Positions 8,442 through 10,106 of a DNA stretch of 64,000 nt are shown here, piece after piece. The DNA comes from Planctomycetota bacterium (GTDB lineage Bacteria; Planctomycetota; Planctomycetia; Planctomycetales; Planctomycetaceae): positions 381,501-445,500 of the forward strand of contig QQVO01000015.1 of assembly GCA_003388505.1 (NCBI GenBank), read 5' to 3'. Under the pieces are notes generated by a model. That model worked only from the letters and a program-made list of their open reading frames with translations, had not been told where the DNA came from and ran no database searches. The translations under genes were made by a program, and so were the position numbers. Every line of letters starts with the position of its first letter. Position 1 is the stretch's first letter.

Positions 8442-9491
8442 TCAGTCGAGCTTCTTCAACTCGCTGACGATGTCGGCGGGAGTCGGCCGGTCGGCGAAGG
8501 TGTTCGCCCGTTTGGCGTATCGCAGAACGCCGTCCTTATCGATGATGAACGTTGCCGGGCGGTTGCTCCACTCCACGTGAATCCGCATCTGGAACACAAC
8601 GCCGTACATCGCGCTGACAGTCAATGAAGGATCCATGAGCAACGGGTAATTCAGGTCGTCGGTGCTCAGCCCCGTCTCCTTCATCATCGCCCGGGCCGAA
8701 TAAATCTCATGCGGATCGATCGCCAGTAACTGCGCATCGACTTCATCGATACTGCCAAGGGCCTCGCGCAACTGCGCCAGTTGTCGGTGGCAGACGGGTC
8801 AGGTGTCGCCGTAAACAAACACCAGCACCACAGCGTTTTCGCCGTGAAAGTCAGCCAGCCGGACTGTCCCGCCCTGCGCGGAAGAGAGTTCGAATTCCGG
8901 CGCCGGTTCGCCAATCCTGGCGGAATCGATTGTCGCCGCGGACCATCCTCGAAGAGTCTCGACGACGCTCTCTTCAAGAACCGCTCCGTCGCGTCCGACT
9001 GCGTACGAGATGTGCTTCAGCACATCTCCGTTGGATTCATTCTGACTCAATCCTGCCCAATCGACGTCTACCCCGAGCATGCCCAGCGAGTCGACAGCGT
9101 AGAGCCTTACAGTCGCGTTTTCGTCCTCACGGGCTGCCTGCCGCAGCGCATCTGCAGCATCCGTTGCAGGAAGATAACCAAGGGTCTGCGCCGCCAGAAT
9201 CCGTTGCGGTTCGTCTCCCGATTTCAGTCGCGCTACCAAAGGCGATACGGCATCCCGTCCGTGCAGGACCAGTTGGTGGAATGCCTCCATCCGGAGTTCC
9301 CAACCGTCATCGTCCGCTTCCCGCATGTAGCCGCCGGGTTCGCGCCGCGACTTCTCCGTCCACGCGGCTTCGTCCCAGCCTGCGGCAAAGCGATCGATCC
9401 AGTCTTGCGGCGTATCGGCCGGCTCTTCCGCGGCGACCAGCCCACCGGCAAGAACTCCCAGAAGCACAGGCAGGATGCGGAGTATCGACAC
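8442..9491 (-). CDS. HEAT-repeat / AhpC-TSA redoxin fusion, putative selenoprotein (in-frame TGA)
   Basis: Read straight through an in-frame TGA at 8799-8801, this is one 349-residue exported protein; read conventionally it breaks into a 230-residue piece and a C-terminal remainder that lacks the active site. Order: signal peptide (residues 1-20, ending V-A-A), a HEAT-like helical region (about 65-155), then a peroxiredoxin/thioredoxin fold (about 190-349). The TGA falls in V-F-V-Y-G-D-T-[TGA]-P-V-C-H-R-Q-L, where the family has C-P-V-C, so residue 231 would be selenocysteine with the resolving Cys at 234 (a U-x-x-C centre). Sequence on both sides aligns with one fold and no frame change, so a random nonsense mutation is less likely but not excluded (TGC to TGA is one base). 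The start is GTG with gggaag upstream. No selA, selB, selC or selD is in the window. Confidence 0.75.
8769..8783 (-). promoter_or_regulatory. SECIS-like hairpin after the in-frame TGA
   Basis: On the minus strand, 15 nt after the TGA, caactg-gcg-cagttg forms a 6-bp hairpin with a 3-nt loop beginning with G. The loop begins 21 nt after the TGA. This meets the loose description of bacterial SECIS elements (short apical stem, G in the first loop positions, roughly 16-37 nt from UGA). It is small, and the fold was judged by eye. Confidence 0.5.
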
Positions 9492-9650: not shown

Positions 9651-10106
9651 ATGCCGACAGTCAAACTCCGCCGCAAGGACGTTCCGAAAGGCGCCAACCT
9701 CTGCGAATACTGCACCGCCAAGTGCTGCGGCTATTTCGCGCTGCCCATGGACACGCCGACCGACCTCGACGACTTTGACCACATCCGCTGGTACATGATG
9801 CACGGCCGGGTCTCGGTCTTCGTGGAAGACGACGTCTGGTATCTGATGGTCCACTCCGTCTGTCAGCACCTGCAGGAAGACCACCGTTGCGGCGTTTATG
9901 AGGAGCGTCCGGGGATCTGCCGAAAGTACACGACCGACGAGTGCGAATTCGACGACGACGCCCTGTACGACAAGTTCTTCGAAACTCCCGAGCAGATCTG
10001 GGAATACGCCGAGTCGGTCTGCGGCCCCCGCAAGCCGCTCAGAAAGTTTTCCGCCGCCCGGCCGGCGGCGACGGATCTCAAGCTGCCCGTTCTGGCGGGG
10101 ACGTAG
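9651..10106 (+). CDS. YkgJ-family cysteine cluster protein
   Basis: A 151-residue protein with the zinc/iron-chelating Cys cluster of the YkgJ/UPF0153 family: C-E-Y-C-T-A-K-C-C near residues 18-26, then V-C-Q-H-L near 71, R-C-G-V-Y near 80, and I-C-R-K-Y near 90. The cluster probably binds a metal ion or iron-sulfur centre. Its role is unknown; the family is small and cytoplasmic. The gene is monocistronic as far as can be seen, followed by a 444-bp repeat-bearing gap. Confidence 0.85.
   Translation: MPTVKLRRKDVPKGANLCEYCTAKCCGYFALPMDTPTDLDDFDHIRWYMMHGRVSVFVEDDVWYLMVHSVCQHLQEDHRCGVYEERPGICRKYTTDECEFDDDALYDKFFETPEQIWEYAESVCGPRKPLRKFSAARPAATDLKLPVLAGT

Follow-up and report, generated by a model that had tools for sequence, protein, structure and literature searches.

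Prx-like thiol:disulfide oxidoreductases that carry the AhpC-TSA domain (PF00578) and a UxxC or UxxU motif are listed as selenoproteins in the available portions of two reviews, which also list a "Redoxin family protein" (PF08534, UxxC) (PMC9312934, PMC13188914). The UxxC type of Prx-like redoxin selenoprotein is already known (PMC13188914). Neither "HEAT" nor "Planctomyc" finds a match in the available portions of these two reviews. Among the matches listed, only one paper treats Planctomycetota selenoproteins at length (PMC4807772, from 2016, on Planctomycetes selenoproteins). The text of it that was available names fdhA and fmdB in section 17 and counts six selenoprotein candidates in one strain; the word "redoxin" is absent from that text, the supplementary candidate table being outside this scope.

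Here we describe a gene from a Planctomycetota bacterium that very probably encodes one selenoprotein with selenocysteine (Sec) at a U-P-V-C centre, a reading strongly supported by comparison with its relatives. An earlier note on this DNA had proposed a putative selenoprotein in which a HEAT domain is joined to a U-x-x-C redoxin, and this proposal is now supported by the sel genes of the host, by the TGA column of the family and by conservation at the RNA level. Neither a HEAT-redoxin selenoprotein nor its Planctomycetota clade is described among the open-licence papers listed, as judged by title and start of abstract. What is added is a probable selenoprotein family, found across several Planctomycetota families, with an architecture undescribed among the papers searched.

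Like the described Prx-like selenoproteins, the protein has an AhpC-TSA domain with Sec first in UxxC, and one relative (L039) has UxxU; it differs from them by the HEAT fusion and by its probable export, the comparison covering the listed domains and motifs. A second group to be compared is that of the Cys-type HEAT-redoxins, found at L023, L024 and L025 (genomes G007, G011 and G009) and on haloarchaeal plasmids of Halomontanus and Salinirubellus (the plasmid search matched 24 records, two of which, both haloarchaeal, were analysed). They share HEAT_2 and AhpC-TSA on one chain (by profile in L023, L086 and L087, by alignment in L024 and L025) as well as a CPVC centre, with 28-33% identity. 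They differ by having Cys for Sec, by ADWCPVC in place of GDTUPVC, and by about 13 extra residues after the centre.

The window, that is the whole stretch of 64,000 nucleotides that was analysed, holds the gene on its minus strand, from 9491 to 8442. A single frame of 349 residues runs from GTG 9491 to TGA 8444-8442; there is no alternative start codon between this GTG and the in-frame stop upstream, and no such protein is encoded by 8442-9491 on the plus strand. The sole internal TGA of the frame is at 8801-8799, in the context ...FVYGDT-U-PVCH... One continuous frame split by TGA at the first position of a redoxin centre had been claimed before, and it is confirmed here on the minus strand. 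Ordinary gene calling had been expected to report two fragments; the ORF listing indeed gives two open frames, and such calling would split the genes of this family so that the active site is lost. The features are as follows.

8442-9491, minus strand: whole gene, GTG 9491 to TGA 8444-8442; 349 residues if the internal TGA codes, as is probable, for selenocysteine.
9429-9491, minus strand: probable signal peptide, up to about residue 21 and with VAA-EE at its end, recognised by eye from the translation.
8946-9305, minus strand: alpha-helical HEAT-repeat domain, residues about 63-182, from Pfam HEAT_2, AF2 helices and PDB profile matches.
8517-8915, minus strand: AhpC/TSA redoxin domain (PF00578), residues 193-325, spanning the TGA.
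8799-8801, minus strand: TGA codon, predicted Sec231, first residue of U-P-V-C; TGA in 33 of 37 distinct genes.
8790-8792, minus strand: Cys234, putative partner of Sec231, matching the motif Cys of an aligned peroxiredoxin (L016 against Rv2238c).
8763-8780, minus strand: SECIS-like hairpin 25 nt after UGA, with its apical loop (AGUU) at 8773-8770 and one G-G mismatch in the window's genome.

Residues 1-20 have low confidence in the AlphaFold2 (AF2) model, and relatives such as L032 and L036 have similar hydrophobic N-termini. Judging from this N-terminus, the protein is probably exported to the cell envelope. The HEAT part combines a profile match with a helical fold: Pfam HEAT_2 matches residues 83-142 (36.1 bits, cut-off 27.7), consecutive helices cover residues 63-182 in the model, and among the PDB chains matched by the sequence profile are alphaRep and HEAT proteins. 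The AhpC-TSA match (PF00578, 100.1 bits, cut-off 26) runs across the TGA. The model itself was built from a 33-row alignment, A4, made of 30 TGA and 3 Cys rows with L021, L039 and L076 left out, and has a mean pLDDT of 91.8 and a pTM of 0.88. With Foldseek, the 50 rows listed of the 637 at E <= 0.001 are all peroxiredoxins or Bcp-type proteins by title, and they align over about 150-174 columns, which correspond to the redoxin part. The best NCBIfam match is the SelL-related redox protein model NF040769 (residues 196-292), yet its 48.6 bits lie far below the cut-off of 120, and no peroxiredoxin model of NCBIfam reaches its cut-off.

We propose the following course for the synthesis and action of the protein. 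The ribosome would meet UGA at codon 231, and the hairpin 25 nt downstream would recruit SelB loaded with Sec-tRNA (UCA). Delivery by SelB would insert selenocysteine, and translation would run on from the HEAT half into the redoxin half, giving a single chain. In the cell envelope, Sec231 and Cys234 would then be paired as U-x-x-C within a thioredoxin fold of the peroxiredoxin-like type; this motif, U-P-V-C, is the UxxC of Prx-like selenoproteins, and Cys234 is invariant in A4 (in L039, left out of A4, a TGA stands at that place). From homology, thiol-disulfide exchange, carried out in the cell envelope, is the likeliest reaction. We lean towards a chemistry in which the attack on a disulfide, or on some other oxidised substrate, comes from Sec231 and the intermediate is resolved by Cys234 through a selenenylsulfide bond, in the way assumed for Prx-like thiol:disulfide oxidoreductases. 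The chances seem about even that the HEAT domain binds a partner protein or positions the redoxin, as homology would suggest; the substrate docking proposed for the repeats in the earlier note is a conjecture.

In our ranking, the main rival to disulfide exchange is peroxidase activity. Typical peroxiredoxins have a PxxxT/SxxC active site and a conserved active-site Arg. The protein would still be a selenoprotein, but Cys234 would be peroxidatic with the conserved Arg311, and Sec231 would be either the resolving residue or the first attacker of peroxides. The redoxin matches, in sequence and in structure, are mostly to peroxiredoxins. Moreover, when the relative L016 is aligned with Rv2238c (PDB 1xvw, 1xxu), which we take to be the 1-Cys peroxiredoxin AhpE, the L016 counterparts of Cys234 and Asn310-Arg311 fall on a Cys and an Asn-Arg of that protein; this Cys and Arg are presumably its peroxidatic Cys and catalytic Arg. 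Rv2238c shares the fold, and Arg311 is conserved at 90% or more in A4. However, only the Cys of the PxxxT/SxxC motif is kept when L016 is aligned with Rv2238c: the Pro is replaced by Tyr227 and the Thr by Sec231. Furthermore, Arg311 is followed by Pro312, presumably at the place of the thioredoxin cis-Pro, and the shortfall of all NCBIfam peroxiredoxin models also counts against a peroxidase. The solved chain of Rv2238c (about 153-164 residues) differs as well in having no HEAT domain. Altogether, we consider a peroxidase rather unlikely, and retain disulfide exchange as the preferred reading.

The relatives of the gene were collected from three overlapping genome samples and from a named genome collection. 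In the sample of the order (170 genomes), 11 genomes have a relative at E <= 1e-20, eight of them with the in-frame TGA and three without. Fifteen of the 397 genomes of the class sample have one at E <= 1e-35, with 17 matches that comprise 16 TGA and one TAA, and at E <= 1e-50 five of the 392 genomes of the phylum sample have one, with TGA in four. The named collection gave no relative with a single-protein query and 25 loci with an alignment query, with TGA in all 25; its pattern scan requires conserved peptides, and divergent Cys members may escape it. By title, 24 of these loci come from Planctomycetota or a group of it (Tautonia sociabilis, a Gemmataceae bacterium and numerous uncultured organisms), and one is named only "bacterium". 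Once identical genes are merged, with distinctness judged on 240 nt around the site, 37 distinct related genes are obtained: 33 have TGA, one has TAA (L038) and three, all distant, have Cys. An in-frame UGA at a column that holds Cys or UGA in relatives, a criterion for selenoproteins, is what we find here. The earlier note had expected Cys or TGA at this column in homologues, and the opposite prospect that it had raised, close relatives all with Cys and no other case of TGA, is contradicted by these counts. Most of the genomes are metagenome assemblies, and the related genes are not mutually independent.

In a tree of 36 rows (A4, L039 and the two haloarchaeal rows), a single branch with 100/100 support parts 31 Sec from 5 Cys proteins. 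No Cys member was found inside the Planctomycetota TGA clade, which makes up the 31 Sec rows on that side of the tree, and the question is raised of why this is so. Two further TGA genes and the TAA copy, which are outside the tree, belong to the Sec clade by similarity. It is conceivable, and we put it forward only tentatively, that this is a selenium-obligate family: an exported HEAT-redoxin with Sec throughout the Planctomycetota clade and a reaction that would be impossible with Cys, which would have budded a UxxU form (L039) and a copy that drifted to UAA with frame and hairpin retained (L038).

Some members of the family deserve a description of their own. L039 (1501-2346, plus strand) is a HEAT-redoxin with two TGA codons, U-L-V-U, and its genome, G349, has two tRNA-Sec genes, both with anticodon UCA. 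L038 (1501-2445, minus strand; also present in L075) is a tandem paralogue in which TAA takes the place of the Sec codon and the rest of the frame is open. Downstream of this codon, comparison with the adjacent L037 gives pN 0.20 and pS 0.48, as though selection still acted there, and L038 retains a hairpin, with loop GGUC; its TAA may be a recent loss, an assembly error or something odder. L021 (genome G016) has an extra TAG upstream and a match that starts only at query residue 112, while TGA and a fully paired hairpin are kept; it is apparently a decaying copy. L076 has a frameshift downstream.

Damaged copies of this kind (the TAG of L021, the TAA of L038, the frameshift of L076) lend some colour to the view that the TGA of the window is an ordinary nonsense mutation or a sequencing error, the gene being a pseudogene or the codon truly TGC or TGT. 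Against it stands TGA at exactly the same column in 33 of the 37 distinct genes, from many separate assemblies. The protein part downstream of TGA is also under selection, with a median pN/pS of 0.45 compared with 0.63 upstream (528 pairs, over 33 rows of which 30 are TGA and 3 Cys), and it is mainly at the hairpin that synonymous codons are frozen. For codons +7 to +11 after TGA, synonymous identity is 0.90 when 0.33 is expected from codon usage, the first of 228 five-codon windows over 27 genes; the other codon windows have a mean excess over expectation of 0.035 (SD 0.051, highest 0.181). The peak is unchanged with 30 genes. These counts use 27 or 30 of the 33 TGA genes: L022, L050 and L051, whose hairpin is shifted, are out of both, and the 27-gene count is also without L021, L039 and L076. 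We regard mutation or error as very improbable.

The selenocysteine machinery was looked for in the window's genome, as the earlier note had advised, and selA, selB, selC and selD are all present. The tRNA-Sec scores 66.5 bits, above the cut-off, and has anticodon UCA. The cut-off of 47 bits is by itself not decisive, because a second match in this genome, L002, also just reaches it. The three protein genes all exceed their curated cut-offs: selA with 528.4 bits, selD with 284.7 bits, and selB with 340.4 bits when its neighbours in the frame are included. They lie side by side on contig C33. By its gene content, this host genome can make selenocysteine. The selD gene of this genome, directly after selB and selA, also encodes a pyridine nucleotide-disulfide oxidoreductase domain as a fusion (L083, 5340-7850, plus strand).

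Joint occurrence of the TGA gene and the machinery is also seen in other genomes. In the order, selA is found in 8 of 8 TGA genomes compared with a base rate of 70/170 (E <= 1e-60), for which the chance is about 6e-4 if relatedness is ignored. Among the Cys genomes, G011 has selA, and G007 and G009 have none at E <= 1e-60. Nine further TGA genomes of the class have selA in 8, tRNA-Sec in 7 and at least one of the two in all 9: there was no tRNA-Sec at 1e-9 in G275 and G404 (150 candidates scored per genome) and no selA in G268. Further TGA genomes of the phylum sample (G739, G604 and G496) are left out of these sel gene counts.

The presence of tRNA-Sec, selA, selB and selD argues against a selenium-free reading of UGA as another residue, for instance Trp or Cys. 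Of the 25 AhpC-TSA matches in the host genome, only the HEAT-redoxin gene has an in-frame stop, which speaks against a general sense use of UGA, although these genes are few. With the SECIS-type conservation and the Cys of distant relatives at this column added, we hold such a reading to be highly improbable. The two open frames of the ORF listing could stand for two independent products, a HEAT protein that stops at TGA and a redoxin fragment with a translation start of its own, but this is most improbable given a redoxin match and a modelled fold that are continuous across TGA, a downstream piece that has neither the first strands nor half of the active site, and a frame uninterrupted by any stop in the Cys relatives.

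We now turn to the RNA signal expected of a selenoprotein. The frozen synonymous codons +7 to +11 coincide with the hairpin at 8780-8763, which in the family most often reads (C)UCGCGC-AGUU-GCGCGA(G). Over the 33 TGA genes, 82.3% of the hairpin cells are paired, with the outermost pair unpaired in 22 of the 33 rows. Hairpin cells changed on both sides number 12, a count reached in 0 of 500 shuffles, whose mean is 5.4. The third pair from outside is C-G in 27 genes and U-A in 3, and the fourth is G-C, G-U, A-U or U-G. In three members, QVAQLRN stands where others have QLAQLRD or QLAQLRE, so that the amino acids differ on both sides and the stem is kept. Two other covariation measures did not stand out from the shuffles (119 and 125 of 500), and the covariation score is still 0.117 with the structure slid by +3 columns, compared with 0.148 in place. 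A covariance fold after the UGA had been advised, and the comparison of the TGA genes shows a covarying hairpin with conserved synonymous codons, at 8780-8763. The hairpin pointed out earlier, caactg-gcg-cagttg, does exist 15 nt after TGA (8783-8769); the conserved hairpin is, however, the one that overlaps it at 8780-8763, which in the window has -10.2 kcal/mol compared with -4.4. As the SECIS of the family, the 6-bp hairpin was rejected: a single gene among the 33 with TGA has its closing pair, and there is no compensatory change.

The bSECIS model, in the available part of PMC13188914, has a loop of 3-9 nt with G in the first two positions, at 16-37 nt from UGA, and a stem of 4-16 bp with MFE <= -7.5. 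This geometry is present in all 33 TGA genes, as the AGUU-loop hairpin in 28 and as other hairpins in 5, and an uninterrupted stem at or below -7.5 kcal/mol is present in 31, with the window's gene and L019 at -6.7. In the window, this uninterrupted stem has 4 bp, and adding the two pairs that lie past the G-G mismatch brings it to -10.2 kcal/mol. One of the three Cys genes has a hairpin of bSECIS geometry, at only -1.7. The TAA copy L038 also has a strong hairpin. L019 and L020 fit better to another hairpin, with loop CGGGC, 20 nt after UGA, and L022, L050 and L051 have theirs 30-31 nt from UGA. With 33 TGA genes, frozen codons and alternative hairpins, the family offers a clean case for the movement and change of SECIS elements within coding sequence. 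Near the hairpin, Rfam models gave only chance matches, and no SECIS family.

Fold energy was rejected as proof of a SECIS, since 16% of the TGAs of the window do as well: an equally stable 40-nt stretch follows 16% of the 1771 TGA trinucleotides, and a model-conforming hairpin at or below -6.6 kcal/mol also follows 16%, for a HEAT-redoxin stem of -6.7. Because of this share, the hairpin energy of the window's gene alone is weak evidence.

The neighbourhood of the genes was compared by BLAST grouping over distances of at most 4 kb, in 26 stretches (the window and 25 loci, L078-L082 being excluded from the counts), and no conserved operon naming a partner was found there. A Crp-type regulator lies within 4 kb in 9 of the 26, in either orientation (L054, L057, L059, L060, L063, L068, L071, L073 and L074; Pfam was run on four of the nine). 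A pyridine nucleotide-disulfide oxidoreductase is nearby in 5 of the 26 (Pfam on one of them), and a DUF3179 gene in 3 of the 26 (L065, L074 and L077; Pfam on L065). The list of selenoprotein families in the available part of PMC13188914 includes PF11376 itself; the DUF3179 frames of L065, L074 and L077 have C-P-L-C and are stop-free. In the window, a neighbour gene at 9651-10106 on the plus strand has a CxxCxxCC putative zinc- or iron-chelating domain.
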